DNA of 64,000 bases from Candidatus Methanoperedens sp. (GTDB taxonomy: Archaea; Halobacteriota; Methanosarcinia; Methanosarcinales; Methanoperedenaceae), in assembly GCA_023249105.1 (NCBI GenBank), contig JAHFDG010000018.1:1-64000 (forward strand). The letters run 5' to 3'. Position numbers and translations under genes: made by a program. The notes below the pieces were generated by a model. It saw nothing but the letters and a program-made list of their open reading frames with translations, had not been told where the DNA came from and did no database searches. Shown piece after piece: positions 27,174-33,702 of this stretch; position 1 is the first letter of the stretch, and every line of letters starts with the position of its first letter.

Positions 27174-27313
27174 TCAATTACTATTATTGTATTGATGAGT
27201 TAATAATATTAACTGGGTGGGTGTTTAATCCTGGCGGCGCGGTTTCAACAACGAACTCGATGAAATCTGGCCGATTCTTTTGATTTCGAGCTGTCGCTAG
27301 GGGCTCAGTGCGG

Positions 27314-27349
27314 ATTAACAACGAACTAATACGAACTCGTACGAACTCA
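27314..27349 (+). repeat. Array of ACGAACT words, left edge of island
   Basis: ACGAACT occurs at 27321, 27331 and 27341, exactly 10 bp apart, preceded by ATTAACA. Another fragment (ACAACGAACTCGATG) lies at 27249. The array sits just downstream of hsdM in the otherwise gene-free 27174-27373 region. The same word in opposite orientation closes the other side of the island. Confidence 0.85.
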
Positions 27350-27373
27350 ATGTTAAAACATTTACTATCAGTT

Positions 27374-28921
27374 TTAAGTGATTTCTTTTAACTTCCTTAA
27401 TCCTTCATTTATCTTGATCTGCGAATCCTCGATTATTTTAATAAGCTCTTCAGGTTTGGGTATGACTTTTTCTTTGACATTCGGATTAACTGCTTTTATG
27501 TCGTAATTCTTACGTTTTATAGTTTCTATATCAATAAACCAGCTTTTTTCACTGGTTTTATCTTCTTCTTTTGTCGAGTTATGCCTTTGCAGGAAGTCAT
27601 CGAATTTATTAAGCGTCAGAGGGTCTTTTTTTAGAATCTTGATATCGGACATATCATAGTACCAGACTTTTTGCGTTGGCTTCTCTTTTGTGAAAAACAA
27701 CAGGTTTGTCTTGACTCCGGCGCCGGCATTTGCGAAGGCGTTCTGTGGCAGGCTGAGGATGCACCATAAATTGCATTCTTCCAGCAGCTTTTTCTTTGTC
27801 TGCACGAAAGCGAGTTCATTTGTCCTGAAGAGTACGCCTTCATCGATTACCATGGCGCATGTTCCGCCTTCTTTAAGATGGTCTATGATATGCTGGATGA
27901 ATAGAATCTGGGTGTTGCCGGTCTTGAAAACAAAGTTCGTCTTGGCGTCTTCCCCTTCTTTCCCGCCAAAAGGAGGATTTGTAAATATATAGTCAAATTT
28001 ACTCTGGGCGCCTTCGAATAGCTCCATATAGGTATCCCTGCCGCTCAATGTGTTTTTCAATCCGACATGAGGATAATCTATCCCGTGCAGGACTAAATTT
28101 GCGAGAGCAATCGGGAATGCGGTGTCGCTGTTGTCCAGTCCCCAGAACGCGTCATGCTTTAAATGTTCTATTTCGGTTGCGTTCAGTTCCTTGCCTGACA
28201 GTTCAGGATTAGTAAAATAAGTGTAACACTCAGCCAGGAAGCCGCCTGTTCCGCAGCAGGGGTCGTAGATAGTTACGAGCGCGCCGTCTTTTAAAATTTG
28301 TGGCTTTATTGCCCTTATCATCGCCCTGATAACTTCCCTTGGAGTAAAGAACTGCCCACCGTCATTGTTTTTCTCGCCCATCTTTAACAGCAAGCCTTCG
28401 TATATTTGCGAGAGCGGGAACTGGTGTGTTTCGTCGATGTTTTCTGATGTGAGGTGGTCGATTTTATCCAGCACGTCAAGCAGGTTCCTCTCGCTTGCGA
28501 GCTTTGTCTGGGTGATGTTCCTGAAGATTTGCGAGATAATTTTTTGTTTTATGTTTGCTGATGGTTTGTCCTGGAATGATTTCAGGTAGGGAATTAACTC
28601 GTTATTTACAAAATCCAGGAAATCTCCCATTTTGCCGTTTTGCAGTTCTACCCTTTTCTTGCCGTAGGTATTGCCCCAGTCTCTCCATCTGTATGGTTCT
28701 TTTAAAGAGGCGGTGAAAGACTTCCCAACAGCCTGGCACTTTAGCTCCTCTTCTTGCTCTTTTTCGTCAAGTATTCGCAGGAACATCATCCATGTAAGTT
28801 CGGGGATGTACTCCAGGGCGCCTTTTGTCCTGTCGCGGCGCATGATGTCGCAGACTGATTTGATGTATGCGTTCATGCTGGATTGGTCTGTTACTGTTCT
28901 TCCGTTATTGTTTTTTGCCAT
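27374..28921 (-). CDS. hsdM: Type I restriction-modification methyltransferase subunit HsdM
   Basis: About 515 aa. An N-terminal helical HsdM_N domain (MNAYIKSVCDIMRRDR...) is followed by an N6-adenine methyltransferase domain. This has the SAM motif IYDPCCGTGGFLAECY (about residue 240) and catalytic FTNPPFGGKEG. The start at 28921 is preferred (AAGGCGG lies upstream on the coding strand); longer upstream ATGs lie inside or next to a repeat. It is separated from hsdS by about 390 bp containing tandem repeats. With HsdS it methylates the host recognition site. Confidence 0.92.
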   Translation of the reverse strand: MAKNNNGRTVTDQSSMNAYIKSVCDIMRRDRTKGALEYIPELTWMMFLRILDEKEQEEELKCQAVGKSFTASLKEPYRWRDWGNTYGKKRVELQNGKMGDFLDFVNNELIPYLKSFQDKPSANIKQKIISQIFRNITQTKLASERNLLDVLDKIDHLTSENIDETHQFPLSQIYEGLLLKMGEKNNDGGQFFTPREVIRAMIRAIKPQILKDGALVTIYDPCCGTGGFLAECYTYFTNPELSGKELNATEIEHLKHDAFWGLDNSDTAFPIALANLVLHGIDYPHVGLKNTLSGRDTYMELFEGAQSKFDYIFTNPPFGGKEGEDAKTNFVFKTGNTQILFIQHIIDHLKEGGTCAMVIDEGVLFRTNELAFVQTKKKLLEECNLWCILSLPQNAFANAGAGVKTNLLFFTKEKPTQKVWYYDMSDIKILKKDPLTLNKFDDFLQRHNSTKEEDKTSEKSWFIDIETIKRKNYDIKAVNPNVKEKVIPKPEELIKIIEDSQIKINEGLRKLKEIT

Positions 28922-28951
28922 GATTTTGTACTTTTCCGCCTGTTGCATTTT

Positions 28952-29250
28952 ATTAACAACGAACTGATACGAACTTGTACGAACTCGATACAAATTTAAC
29001 GGTGAGTTCGTATTGAGTTCATTGGGAGTTCGTCGTTAGATATTTTCACTTCTCATTTTGGTTGCTTTGGGTGAGTATTAGGATTAACAACGAACTAATA
29101 CGAACTCGTACGAACTCGATACAAATTTAACGGTGAGTTCGTATTGAGTTCGTTGGGAGTTCGTTGTTAAATATTTTCATTTCTCATTTTGGGTTGCTTT
29201 GGGTGAGTATTAGAATTAACAACGAACTAATACGAACTCGTACAAACTCT
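28952..29250 (-). repeat. Tandem 131-132-bp repeat with long inverted repeats (2.3 copies)
   Basis: Copies start at 28952, 29083 and 29215 (third partial). Each full copy has ACGAACT words, then a central ACAAATTTAACGG, then AGTTCGT words on the other strand, so each forms an imperfect inverted repeat of about 85 bp. A roughly 45-bp spacer (ATATTTTCA..TTTGGGTGAGTATTAG) follows. In the left arm the words are 10 bp apart, in the right arm 11 bp. The block lies exactly between hsdS and hsdM. Confidence 0.88.
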
Positions 29251-29313
29251 GAGGGTTCGTGTGGGTTGGTTATGAGCCCGCTGTTTTGTATTCTGTATTG
29301 CATAAGTGTTGCA

Positions 29314-30543
29314 TTAGGTTAATTGGATTTGATATTGTCCGAAGACTTCGTTGAGGATTGAGTTGGGGAGCTGGTTGATTGCTGATATCTGTGAGTTCAC
29401 TTGATGTAGTATTTCATCGTGCCTAATTTTAATGTTGTCAATAATATTGGATAGACGATTAATTTCTTTCTCACTTGTTGGGAGATATATTTCAAAATTC
29501 GATAATGTAATTCCAGTTAGGTTTGGAAATGCAGAACCTGGACTTCGTCTTAATAGCTCCTCGGTTATAAATTCAACAATATGCGTTATAATTGATGTCT
29601 GGATTATACTATTTTTTGGGCGTATTGCCGCAATTCCTCTACCAATGCAATACTCTTGATCTGCCTTATTAGTTTTTCCTGTTGTATTTCCTCTGACACA
29701 CAATAGGACATCGCCTACATTACATATTTTTTTGGGCAAAGTTGTCCACTGTATCGGTATTGGATGAACTCTACCAAACTCAGTGGGTCCATTGAGCAAA
29801 GGTATCCCTTCATTATTTTTATTATAAGATGTTCCAGGAGGAGATTGCCCCATCTCAATTTCAAATAAATTCACAAATCTATATTTTTTAAATTTTTCTT
29901 TGTTATTATGGAAATACTCATTTAACTGTGAATGATAAAATTGTTTAGCAGCTTCATTTTGTTTCTCCACTTCTCTTTTAATAATCTCGATTTGAGCCAT
30001 TTGCTTATCGAGTTTTTCCACTATTTTTTGTTGTTCTATTATCGGTGGAACTATTATCGGATAATTTCCAAGAAAAGATGCTGGAACTCTTTGTTGTCCA
30101 ACTGCGCCTGTGAAGTTATTCTCTGCTTCATCTATAAATCTTTGATTTCTTATGAAATAATAAATCCATTTTGGAATAACTCTTTCATTGCACCTTAGAA
30201 CGTGAAATTCGGTTGTTCCAAACCCATAGCCACCAATCAGACCCTTAGCGATAGCACTTTTCTTGTTCTGCATACAAGGAGTAATCTTAGCGAAAAGTAC
30301 GTCGTTTTCTTCAAAATATGTATATCCTTTTTTAACTTTTGAAAAGGGAACTATTCTTATTTCACTGATTATACCCCTATCGCCATCAACTACTTCCATT
30401 GGAACAAAAGAAGTCTCTGTATCGTCATTTGCCTCCAAATCTTTGCTTCTTCTTGGATTTATTTCACATTCTTCCCCTAAAGTGCTACATCTCCATCCCT
30501 CTGGCAACTTCCTCATCTCAATCGCAACAACCTCCCCTCTCAT
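29314..30543 (-). CDS. hsdS: Type I restriction-modification specificity subunit HsdS
   Basis: A 409-aa protein with the expected two target-recognition domains. The first TRD is about 5-180 (RKLPEGWRCSTLGEECEINP). The first conserved helix carries IVEKLDKQMAQIEIIKREVE. The second TRD is about 220-360, followed by a second conserved helix (EINRLSNIIDNIKIRHDEIL). Each TRD reads half of a bipartite site. The start ATG overlaps the hsdR stop (ATGA). The 3' end is followed by the tandem repeat block. Confidence 0.9.
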   Translation of the reverse strand: MRGEVVAIEMRKLPEGWRCSTLGEECEINPRRSKDLEANDDTETSFVPMEVVDGDRGIISEIRIVPFSKVKKGYTYFEENDVLFAKITPCMQNKKSAIAKGLIGGYGFGTTEFHVLRCNERVIPKWIYYFIRNQRFIDEAENNFTGAVGQQRVPASFLGNYPIIVPPIIEQQKIVEKLDKQMAQIEIIKREVEKQNEAAKQFYHSQLNEYFHNNKEKFKKYRFVNLFEIEMGQSPPGTSYNKNNEGIPLLNGPTEFGRVHPIPIQWTTLPKKICNVGDVLLCVRGNTTGKTNKADQEYCIGRGIAAIRPKNSIIQTSIITHIVEFITEELLRRSPGSAFPNLTGITLSNFEIYLPTSEKEINRLSNIIDNIKIRHDEILHQVNSQISAINQLPNSILNEVFGQYQIQLT

Positions 30544-32894
30544 GCCGCCAGCAGCCCCATCTTTACCTCAGATACCACATCACCAAGATTCAGACCGCTC
30601 TTAGCCAGAGCCTTAATCCCTCCAGCCTTCTTTATCTCAACCACATCAAAAACTTCTGGACTTTCAAGCTCCTCGATACCATTCTCTTCAAATTGCTTCG
30701 CAAGAGCCTTGATAACATTCGCAGAATCCCCGGGCAGCGACATCAGCCATTCCCTGTTCTTATAATCAAATGCCAGAACCCTCGCTCCCCTTGTCTTTGC
30801 TGGCACGCCGAAGCCTATCTCGGCGAACAGGTCAAATAAATCGCAGTCCTTTAGCTTCAATAAATCCCGCAGCAGCAAGGCGCCCTTCTCGCCGCCGGGC
30901 AGCGCCGAAATCAGGTGCTTCCTCTCCTCCGGATTGACCCACATTTCGCGCAACAGGTCAATGTTATCAGCCCGCTCGACCAGCGAGGCAGCCAGCTTTT
31001 CCCTGTATTCCTCGACTGTGTATGGTCTTTCTTTTCCCGTTATTTCATCCTTCATCAAAATGAACGTCCCTTCGTCCCTGATTTCAACATTATATCCCCG
31101 AACTTTTGCAATCTTCCTTTTTTCTCCATCTTTGGGAGGTCTTGAAGGCTCAGTCCTTGGCGTTGAGATGAATTCCTTTCCAAATAACCTTGTCGCATTG
31201 GTATAATCATATATCCTGAACATGAACTTACCGAAGGCTTCATCGATTCTCATCCCGCGCCCGACCATCTGGTAAAAGAGAATCGGAGATTTTACATAAG
31301 TAAAGAACACAATGTTCTGGACGCATGGGATATCAACACCCGTTGTCAGCAAATCAACAGTTGTAGCTATGAAATGGGAATTCTTGCTCCCGCGCATGTT
31401 TGCAATCAATACCTCCTGGCTTTCTCCCAGCGAGCCGCTTGCTATCCCTTTTTGCGTGCATTTGAAAGCAAACTTCTCACAATCTGGCAGTCCTTTATCC
31501 TTGTACATATTATTCAGTTCGATTTCCACATCCTCAGCATGTTTGTCATTCGCGCAAAAAATAATCGTCTTCTGCTTTAAGCCCCCTGTTTTTTCGAACT
31601 GCTCCAGCAAATCCTTACACATTGCTTTTCTTCTATCTGGAAGTATAAGTTGCCTGTCAAAGTCTTCTTTGCTATACGTGTCTTTAACATCGCCTGTACC
31701 CATTGGCTTCCCTGTTTTTGAATCATAAACCCCTTTATCCAGCAGTTCTTCCTTCGTTAGCAGGCGCTCATCTATACTGGCGCTCCTTCTAACAATCTCA
31801 CATGCTGCAAGATAGCCATCTTCCCATCCTTTAGCATACGGATATTCATACACGGGCTCGCCAAAATACTTGAGATTATTCCTGCTTATTTTCTCATCCT
31901 TATCCTTTTCAGGAGATTTCTCGCCAGTTATCTTCCTTGGCGTCGCAGTCAGTCCAATCTGCACAGCATCGGGATTATTTGTGAGGACGACACTCCACTT
32001 ATCCCATGCGCTCCTGTGACATTCATCTATAATGATATGGCTGAAATAATTCTCAGGATAATTCTGCAAAAAGAACGATTGGTCGCCATCTTCATCAATC
32101 CCAAGCGCCTGGTATGTTGACACAATAATCCTGGCATTCTTTTTAGGGTCTTTATTCTCGACAAACGCCGCATTATCGCCGAAAACCGAGAACATTTGTC
32201 CAAATCCCTGTTTCCTGAGTTCGTTCCTGTCGCACACAAATAAAGCCCTTCTCAAATGTCCTGCCTCAGCCAGTTTATGCAAAAGCTGGACTGCTATTCG
32301 CGTCTTTCCTGAACCTGTCGCCAGAGAAAGCAAAACCCTGTTCCAGCCCTCCTTCTTTTCTGCAATTTTCTCAAGCGCCGCCCTGATTGCAGCGTCCTGA
32401 TAATACCTTCTTTCAGATTGCCCTCCTCTATATGGGACACAAAGAGGTTTGGCATCTTCATCTTCCAGGGAAAAACCTCTGCCAGTTTCATATAACTTTT
32501 TCAGCAATTCCGGTTTCGGGAAGCTTTCAAGGTGCAGTTCCTCACTCACTTTTTGATTAAAAGAATCATATTCAATGAAAAGATGACCGTTGGTTGAAAA
32601 TACAAAAGGAACATTGAGGCTCTTTGCATATTCCTTAGCCTGTCCCAATCCAAGGGTTGCATGCTCATCTTCTTTTTTGGCCTCTAATACCGCAATAGCA
32701 AATGGGTTTTCTCCGGATTTTACAGGCAGGCATAACAGATAGTCAGTTCTCCCCTTCTTTCGTTTGGGAGTTCCATTAATGATTTCAATAGTTCCCGCTG
32801 TGGTTTCTCTTCTGATTAAGTCCTCAGTCCAACCTAAACCATGAAGCGCAGGATCTATGAGTTTTGCCCTTGTATCTGCTTCATTCAATCCCAT
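30540..32894 (-). CDS. hsdR: Type I restriction enzyme endonuclease/helicase subunit HsdR
   Basis: About 784 aa from MGLNEADTRAKLIDPA, the usual HsdR start; an alternative ATG lies 7 codons upstream. An N-terminal PD-(D/E)xK nuclease domain (RTDYLLCLPVKSGENPFAIA, then VLEAKKE) precedes the DEAD-like helicase. This has SLATGSGKTRIAVQLL (Walker A), IIIDECHRSAWDKW (Walker B) and VQIGLTATPRK (motif III). Later motifs include FATTVDLLTTGVDIP-like and MVGRGMRIDEA. HsdR needs HsdM and HsdS for cutting. First gene of the operon. Confidence 0.92.
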   Translation of the reverse strand: MGLNEADTRAKLIDPALHGLGWTEDLIRRETTAGTIEIINGTPKRKKGRTDYLLCLPVKSGENPFAIAVLEAKKEDEHATLGLGQAKEYAKSLNVPFVFSTNGHLFIEYDSFNQKVSEELHLESFPKPELLKKLYETGRGFSLEDEDAKPLCVPYRGGQSERRYYQDAAIRAALEKIAEKKEGWNRVLLSLATGSGKTRIAVQLLHKLAEAGHLRRALFVCDRNELRKQGFGQMFSVFGDNAAFVENKDPKKNARIIVSTYQALGIDEDGDQSFFLQNYPENYFSHIIIDECHRSAWDKWSVVLTNNPDAVQIGLTATPRKITGEKSPEKDKDEKISRNNLKYFGEPVYEYPYAKGWEDGYLAACEIVRRSASIDERLLTKEELLDKGVYDSKTGKPMGTGDVKDTYSKEDFDRQLILPDRRKAMCKDLLEQFEKTGGLKQKTIIFCANDKHAEDVEIELNNMYKDKGLPDCEKFAFKCTQKGIASGSLGESQEVLIANMRGSKNSHFIATTVDLLTTGVDIPCVQNIVFFTYVKSPILFYQMVGRGMRIDEAFGKFMFRIYDYTNATRLFGKEFISTPRTEPSRPPKDGEKRKIAKVRGYNVEIRDEGTFILMKDEITGKERPYTVEEYREKLAASLVERADNIDLLREMWVNPEERKHLISALPGGEKGALLLRDLLKLKDCDLFDLFAEIGFGVPAKTRGARVLAFDYKNREWLMSLPGDSANVIKALAKQFEENGIEELESPEVFDVVEIKKAGGIKALAKSGLNLGDVVSEVKMGLLAA

Positions 32895-32994
32895 TTTATA
32901 AGTAAATATCAGCACATGCGTATAAATGTTACTTTATTAATTATTTATTACTTAAGAAAAAGTAACCACTCGGGGAGGAATAATGAACTTTAAA

Positions 32995-33038
32995 GAGTTC
33001 GTACGAGTTCGTACGAGTTCATGTTAGTTCGTTGTTAA
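32995..33038 (-). repeat. Array of AGTTCGT words upstream of hsdR
   Basis: AGTTCGT (reverse complement of ACGAACT) at 32996, 33006, 33016 (one mismatch) and 33026: four words at exactly 10-bp spacing, then TTGTTAA. It lies between hsdR and the GxxExxY gene, in the hsdR upstream region, so it might act as an operator as well as a boundary. Confidence 0.85.
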
Positions 33039-33067
33039 CTATTCATACTGGCCGGCTAGCTCATTGT

Positions 33068-33448
33068 CTAAATCATATTTGGTACTCGCTCAATATCCAC
33101 AGTATTTCTTTCCCTGCTAAAATTAACAAGAACTCCCAGTTTAACCCCAGTAGCTTTCAGGTAATTCAAAAGTTGTGCTTTGTGTATATTTGCTATTTCA
33201 TTAACGGTTTTAATCTCAATCATTATCTTATCAACAACATACAAATCAGCAAAATAGTCGCCAACGACTTTGTTCTTATACATAACCTGAATCGGATGTT
33301 GCTGCTCGACCACAAAACCTCTTTCTTCTAGTTCAATTTTTAGAGCATTTTCATAAACCTTTTCAAGAAACCCAAGGCCAAGTTCATTTTTTAGCTCTAT
33401 ACAGGCTGATTTTATATCATAAAATTCTTGTTTATATAATAATTCCAT
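33068..33448 (-). CDS. GxxExxY family protein (PD-(D/E)xK nuclease fold)
   Basis: A 126-aa protein. The N-terminal helix and signature (ELGLGFLEKVYENALKIELE) contain the defining G-x-x-E-x-x-Y. Later YFADLYVVDKIMIEIKTVNE gives the D-x-(n)-E-x-K acid-acid-Lys core of the PD-(D/E)xK nuclease fold. Members are often in archaeal and bacterial accessory regions and their substrate is unclear. The gene is boxed by ACGAACT arrays on both sides (32995 and 33503) and lies beside the hsdR promoter. Confidence 0.82.
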   Translation of the reverse strand: MELLYKQEFYDIKSACIELKNELGLGFLEKVYENALKIELEERGFVVEQQHPIQVMYKNKVVGDYFADLYVVDKIMIEIKTVNEIANIHKAQLLNYLKATGVKLGVLVNFSRERNTVDIERVPNMI

Positions 33449-33503
33449 AGAATCCTCCAGCAGAAAAAAAAAACAACCATCAGACCAACTTGAACAAACA
33501 ATA

Positions 33504-33537
33504 AGAGTTCGTACGAGTTCGTATCAGTTCGTTGTTG
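33504..33537 (-). repeat. AGTTCGT array
   Basis: AGTTCGT at 33506, 33516 and 33526, exact 10-bp steps, ending TTGTTGATG. It flanks the 5' side of the GxxExxY gene. Confidence 0.85.
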
Positions 33538-33667
33538 ATGAATCTGTTGAAAATGTAAATAGCCAATTGCTCTAACCCTTTATATCCTAATGCCAAACAG
33601 TGTGAAAGTATTCGTAACACCAAATGTAAAACATTTTGTTTCAAACCAAACTTAAATGAATATACAA

Positions 33668-33702
33668 GAGTTCGTACGAGTTCGTATTAGTTCGTTGTTA
33701 AT
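33668..33702 (-). repeat. AGTTCGT array, right edge of island
   Basis: AGTTCGT at 33669, 33679 and 33689, exact 10-bp steps, ending TTGTTAATAATAG. It is just before the stop of the convergent-edge PFL gene at 33709 and closes the island opposite the array at 27314. Confidence 0.85.

Follow-up and report, generated by a model that had tools for sequence, protein, structure and literature searches.

Arrays of the seven-base word ACGAACT, set at 10-bp steps, lay on both sides of a gene for a GxxExxY-family protein in a 64,000-nucleotide stretch of Candidatus Methanoperedens DNA (hereafter the window), and phased arrays of other words bracketed GxxExxY genes elsewhere in archaea and in bacteria. 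That the arrays track the neighbouring GxxExxY gene is well supported. We give a probability of about 0.5 to the reading that the GxxExxY nuclease encoded within the island has the ACGAACT arrays as its cognate DNA sites, and that these arrays are also the arms of a dispersed REP-like palindromic family partnered with it.

ACGAACT arrays and the inserted island

The word ACGAACT was counted 32 times in the window, against 4.66 ± 2.43 expected from dinucleotide shuffles (largest shuffled count, 12), and 28 of these exact words fell within 27245-33702 (Table 1). The first-pass annotation had listed arrays of three or four words at exact 10-bp steps. The steps are real and all of its word positions were confirmed except 33016, which reads AGTTCAT (one mismatch); the array at 32996 does consist of four words in series, three of them exact. 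The phasing on one helix face was borne out in loci fetched from the genus, where the start-to-start distance between words was 10 bp in 191 cases, 11 bp in 37 and 9 bp in 17. Overlooked in the first reading were a single unit at 27251 and further arrays inside the island at 28953-29249, which form a 131-bp tandem repeat of 2.3 copies with words on both strands in each copy.

The same annotation had described a type I restriction-modification (R-M) island bounded by opposed arrays, and this description held. The two outermost arrays, at 27314-27348 and 33668-33702, match each other perfectly over 35 bp in inverted orientation and lie at either end of an insertion that was missing in six relatives, where the TrkA and DUF711 genes are adjacent (L078, L079, L080 and the more distant L086, L094 and L095). 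Orthologues of the neighbouring DUF711 gene were 83-97% identical in Candidatus Methanoperedens (ANME-2d) genomes. The right junction of the island coincided with the outer end of the right array, and the left junction lay approximately 94 bp outside the left array, close to the degenerate unit. No target duplication was visible at the junctions in comparison with the relatives without the island. The hsdM coordinates are those of the listed ORF, for which an in-frame ATG at 28921 is the likelier start.

Table 1. Coordinates of the island, its genes and its ACGAACT arrays in the window
Feature	Position	Strand	Basis
Inserted island, missing in six relatives	27221..33702	.	blastn and junction reading vs L078, L079, L080, L086, L094, L095
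Degenerate single unit TCAACAACGAACTCGATG, near left junction	27245..27262	+	sequence
Left outer array, three words, 35 bp, reverse complement of 33668-33702	27314..27348	+	
hsdM, type I methyltransferase	27374..28993	-	PF02384, PF12161
Two-armed palindromic ACGAACT element, copy 1	28953..29038	.	
Two-armed palindromic ACGAACT element, copy 2 of 131-bp tandem repeat	29084..29169	.	
Left arm alone, partial third copy of 131-bp tandem repeat	29216..29249	+	
hsdS, type I specificity subunit	29314..30543	-	PF01420
hsdR, type I restriction subunit	30540..32915	-	PF04851, PF08463
Array, four words (one imperfect), between hsdR and GxxExxY gene	32996..33038	-	
GxxExxY nuclease gene, 126 aa	33068..33448	-	PF13366 E=6e-38; TIGR04256; invariant E29 D68 E78 K80 Q92 Y96
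Array, three words, upstream of GxxExxY gene	33506..33538	-	
Right outer array, three words, ending at island's right junction	33668..33702	-	

A related hsd locus was found in genome G008, with HsdM and HsdR 91-93% identical, HsdS 54% identical, and ACGAACT arrays upstream of hsdM and hsdR. In an ANME-2d locus (L128 2532-9379), a distantly related hsdR-hsdS-hsdM locus adjoins an ACGAACT-type GxxExxY unit, as it does in the window.

The GxxExxY protein and its predicted fold

The GxxExxY protein of the window scored well above the curated cut-offs of both family models (PF13366, 130.2 bits, cut-off 22; TIGR04256, 130.9 bits, cut-off 35). Ten columns were invariant in 69 GxxExxY sequences, including Q92, Y96 and the PD-(D/E)XK residues E29, D68, E78 and K80; as read from these sequences, the predicted catalytic PD-(D/E)XK core is intact in the family. 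The AlphaFold2 model was confident (pLDDT 92.9, pTM 0.87), and its best PDB matches were the Cas4 protein SSO0001 (Foldseek E 9e-6), LHK-Exo (4e-4), MGME1 and lambda exonuclease; an archaeal Holliday-junction resolvase ranked lower. Among the sequence-level relatives there was no solved structure. The predicted fold and the order of the D, ExK and QxxxY motifs suggest that GxxExxY is a RecB/Cas4/lambda-exonuclease-like nuclease, although it differs from these enzymes in being small and stand-alone, with approximately 20% identity.

GxxExxY genes were present in 25 of the 31 Methanoperedens genomes and, in one bacterial class reached via a Desulfobacteraceae genome, in 60 of the 117 genomes sampled. 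A search limited to open-access full text returned no published function or repeat association for GxxExxY (PF13366, TIGR04256). Judged by title or abstract, none of the three open-access papers naming GxxExxY or PF13366 was on the family, and the repeat strings gave one open-access text match, CTCTGTGTTCTCTGTG, in a Bacteroides fragilis paper. The novelty of the link between GxxExxY and the repeats is provisional.

Phased arrays bracket GxxExxY genes and the word follows the protein clade

The first-pass annotation had advised a search for a co-occurring DNA-binding gene, and the GxxExxY gene within the island is the candidate. Two ACGAACT arrays immediately flank the GxxExxY gene in ANME-2d, one on each side. 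GxxExxY genes of other clades, first seen in a genus-wide search for the family, were bracketed by phased words of their own, namely CGCAAAG, CGCAGAT, CACAGAG, CACGGAA, CACGGAT, ACAGGAT, CACGAAG and others. A detector of exact 7-mers was too strict for this bracketing (11/40), and loci were scored instead by the best inverted repeat linking the 300 bp before the gene with the 300 bp after it, with a score of at least 14 as a pass and with control ORFs for comparison. By this score, 28 of 39 GxxExxY genes of the archaeal phylum were bracketed, compared with 5 of the 522 control ORFs (p=5e-17, Mann-Whitney). The corresponding figures for bacteria were 24 of 28 loci and 2 of 33 controls (p=2e-8), the control ORFs being called mechanically and few in number for the bacterial set.

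The window copy was exceptional in that the arrays on the two sides of the GxxExxY gene share one orientation. Array orientation at ACGAACT-type genes varied: the arrays face away from the gene in ANME-2d (L194, L243 and L247) and run in the same direction in the window (32996-33538). The other GxxExxY clades usually had an inward-facing pair, unlike the ACGAACT-type genes.

Within the genus, ACGAACT arrays were found in the fetched locus for all nine GxxExxY genes or fragments of the ACGAACT clade and for none of the 44 from other clades; the nine come from five genomes, one of which supplies several as copies. A tree of 51 proteins carrying 13 word types required 16 changes of word (minimum, 12), compared with a mean of 36.6 after shuffling and no count as low in 200 shuffles; the word labels came from a simple count that left 19 of 70 loci unlabelled. 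One clade of this tree, that of CACGGAA, mixed bacteria with an archaeon. Because the arrays are clade-specific and the word type follows the protein tree, word and protein stay together, through recognition or through inheritance as one unit. At the level of whole genomes, those with the cognate gene had a modest, weak excess of ACGAACT arrays (p=0.027), and G008, G015 and G026 held 77, 59 and 57 arrays, respectively, despite having no recognisable cognate gene.

Dispersed palindromic elements

The pattern ACGAACT-N3-ACGAACT occurred 36 times in the window's own genome (3.28 Mb in 134 contigs), whereas the reversed control pattern did not occur; 24 of the 36 copies sat on 15 other contigs. 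It was detected in every one of the 31 Methanoperedens genomes, at 1 to 119 copies each. Beyond the genus, the three genomes sampled from elsewhere in the family all had it, as did 4 of 26 from the rest of the order; many of the genomes are MAGs with repeats at contig ends. The arrays proved to be the arms of palindromic elements of approximately 75-85 bp with the ends TTAACA..TGTTGA. Complete elements were near-palindromic, with three words per arm in 45 of 51 distinct copies and an 11-bp centre in 40 of 51; some arms were found alone. The spacers between words paired across the arms in 1 of 97 cases, compared with 9.0 in shuffles; because the copies share descent, the comparison does not formally test for selection. 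The unpaired spacers argue against a continuous stem and fit better with words that are read by a protein. Four of 112 arrays fell inside ORFs of at least 110 aa. The gene pairs around 89 placed arrays were divergent in 17 cases, tandem in 51 and convergent in 21, against 116, 534 and 129 for all adjacent ORF pairs.

Several further arrangements were observed around these elements. ACGAACT palindromes were nested in CGCAAAG-type arrays (L118 9630-9706 on C112; L114 2745-2821 on C85; L392 at the folD end of G014), so that array elements with one word insert into elements with a different word or grow inside them. A short element starting AAAGCGACACCTCGCTTTATGCGG, with two small hairpins and an IS200/IS605-like appearance, was inserted beside an ACGAACT word at L162 (~4470), L163 (~18354), L170 (~12909) and L117 (1453-1582, C51 of the own genome), always at the AGTTCGT/AAAGCG boundary, as if the arrays were a preferred target. 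At L109 9743-10300 (C31:17742-18299), approximately 470 bp split an ACGAACT element; this insert is bordered by a duplicated GAACTCGTACGAACT-like stretch and holds a 119-aa ORF without a Pfam match. An ACGAACT element at L121 6303-6380 (C122) lay a few bases downstream of the 3' end of an apparent tRNA gene (GAGTTCGAATCTCAGCGGGCCCA).

Presence and absence between relatives, and larger transposons

Solo elements and GxxExxY units were polymorphic between species. The ACGAACT element on C112 was missing in G208, where the site is a CGCAAAG-type array, and no target duplication was seen for this solo element. At the 3' end of thiC, a GxxExxY unit was present in G018, G023 and G027 and not in 11 other genomes read, one of which (G024) retained an array relic. 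The 3' end of folD was empty in G015, and carried a solo array in G008, a nested ACGAACT element in G014 and a GxxExxY unit in G005.

Some ANME-2d GxxExxY units of the ACGAACT type lay inside a larger element with the terminal inverted repeat (TIR) CCATAGCGTCAAG and 8-bp target duplications (CTATTTAT and ATAAACTG, in two units). Elements elsewhere with ends related to CCATAGCGTCAAG encode a Mutator/MULE-type transposase, and GxxExxY was rejected on this ground as the mover of the ANME-2d TIR units. Their moves are probably the work of the Mutator-type transposase; since these gene-bearing units have Mutator-type ends, GxxExxY need not be involved in them. Most non-ACGAACT GxxExxY units were without such larger ends. 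A transposon family with the TIR CCATAGCGTCA(A/T)GATT and a Mutator/MULE-type transposase was also noted at L243 and L246 (ANME-2d) and at L421 and L425; its non-autonomous copies show 8-bp duplications and carry GxxExxY units of two types, ACGAACT and CACGGAT.

Array elements resemble MITEs and TIR insertion sequences in having inverted ends around a short body or a single gene and in being present or absent between relatives. They differ in that their ends are phased word arrays, they encode no transposase and, as solo elements, they show no constant target duplication; a true TIR element encloses only some of the ANME-2d units. In keeping with the first-pass remark, the arrays are not known to match any transposon end pattern. 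A virus origin was rejected: neither a phage collection nor a scan of viral contigs yielded a GxxExxY relative. Seven viral contigs had three-word ACGAACT arrays, which were one-armed tandem arrays without GxxExxY. These contigs (L445-L451) are unrelated, and their arrays, with constant spacers (e.g., ACGAACTGGT and AGTTCGTCCA), 10-bp steps and no palindromes, are perhaps protein-binding arrays of another kind. A plasmid origin was likewise set aside, no plasmid DNA matching the array; eight plasmids carried distant GxxExxY genes.

A proposed nuclease-repeat partnership

The phased repeats that bracket GxxExxY genes in archaea and bacteria suggest, by analogy, an undescribed partnership of nuclease and repeat resembling REP/RAYT. 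RAYT genes are described as always having two inverted REPs at their flanks (PMC2817692). The likeness to REP/RAYT systems (REPtron, BIME, REPIN) lies in short intergenic palindromes with many dispersed copies, in a repeat type that follows the enzyme, and in a nuclease-type gene that lies between inverted copies of the repeat, a feature that holds class-wide, the flanking arrays of the window sharing one orientation. The enzymes differ: the bracketed gene matched PF13366 only and not the Y1 family (IS200/IS605-type, PF01797), and its model has a PD-(D/E)XK fold rather than that of a Y1 HUH transposase. The repeats differ as well, since a REP is a 20-40 bp stem-loop with a GTAG (or CGTC) tag, whereas the elements described here comprise approximately 75-85 bp of 7-bp words at ~10-bp steps with unpaired spacers, and the array system occurs in archaea and bacteria alike.

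In the proposed mechanism, an oligomeric GxxExxY protein would bind one word after another along the same helix face and cut or nick at inverted arrays, and host repair would then copy or move the bracketed DNA. Usually the palindrome alone would be bracketed; in many cases the nuclease gene would be, and now and then cargo such as the window's hsd genes. Such a system would work like a REPtron, in which a bracketed RAYT gene accompanies dispersed REPs, except that an unrelated nuclease would take the part of the Y1 transposase.

Several observations weigh against this partnership. Word and protein may co-occur merely by inheritance as one unit; the arrays flanking the GxxExxY gene do not form an inward pair in the window or in ANME-2d; several genomes lacking a recognisable cognate gene are rich in arrays, and the excess linked to the gene is weak; the ANME-2d units with 8-bp duplications have Mutator-type ends; and neither the island nor the solo elements showed a target duplication. 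Some of the same facts favour a rather unlikely alternative, in which the arrays are passive passengers, that is, REP- or MITE-like palindromes spread by another enzyme or by errors of replication and repair, and GxxExxY is the cargo of a larger transposon or an insertion at a hot spot. Arrays that are numerous where the cognate gene is lacking, ACGAACT units enclosed in the CCATAGCGTCAAG element, and ACGAACT elements nested in CGCAAAG arrays would all be expected of passengers. However, each protein clade is bracketed by its own word, and such bracketing turns up again in distant archaea and bacteria; random capture predicts neither. The larger ends are also missing from most non-ACGAACT units.

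The arrays might instead be operators, sites of a regulator (possibly GxxExxY itself) that controls transcription of GxxExxY, hsd and other genes. At many loci no more than ~10-20 bp separate the end of the 5' array from the start of the GxxExxY domain, and hsdM, hsdR and GxxExxY all have arrays upstream in the window; but the downstream inverted array is equally regular, the 89 placed arrays lack the promoter bias that an operator needs, and up to 119 copies with presence and absence between relatives look like repeats, which makes this explanation improbable. We regard as very improbable that the palindromes act as structural hairpins (RNA terminators or DNA cruciforms) in which word repetition is incidental. 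Complete elements are indeed palindromic at the word level, but the hairpin or terminator reading was rejected on the unpaired arm spacers, the occurrence of single arms and the lack of a convergent-gene bias or of any clear bias in gene orientation. Very little weight is likewise given to the initial view that the arrays mark a site for recombination, silencing or replication control peculiar to islands of type I R-M genes. The island ends do coincide with arrays, and hsd genes adjoin ACGAACT arrays also in G008 and ANME-2d; however, arrays within 1.5 kb were not significantly enriched at hsdS loci of the genus (3/30 vs 5/129 control windows, 4/107 plus 1/22; a small sample). As regards R-M, the arrays were scattered widely without significant association with such islands, on the 15 other contigs and across the genus, which is the outcome that the first-pass annotation had named as refuting its view, and no result here favoured a silencing or replication-control role.

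Significance for the GxxExxY family

Phased intergenic repeats of these words recur, unexplained, in many genomes. The link described here gives the GxxExxY family a testable function and gives the repeats a candidate partner, and the clade-by-clade word specificities are predictions directly open to a binding assay. We raise, as a tentative possibility, that the units form a new class of mobile DNA common to archaea and bacteria: compact units with phased word arrays as ends, whose sole protein would be a Cas4/RecB-like GxxExxY that reads its own word, and which would explain several abundant intergenic repeats (the CGCAAAG, CGCAGAT, CACAGAG, CACGGAT and ACGAACT types). If the nuclease does recognise seven-base words lined up along a single helix face, GxxExxY would also be a compact natural system of DNA recognition.
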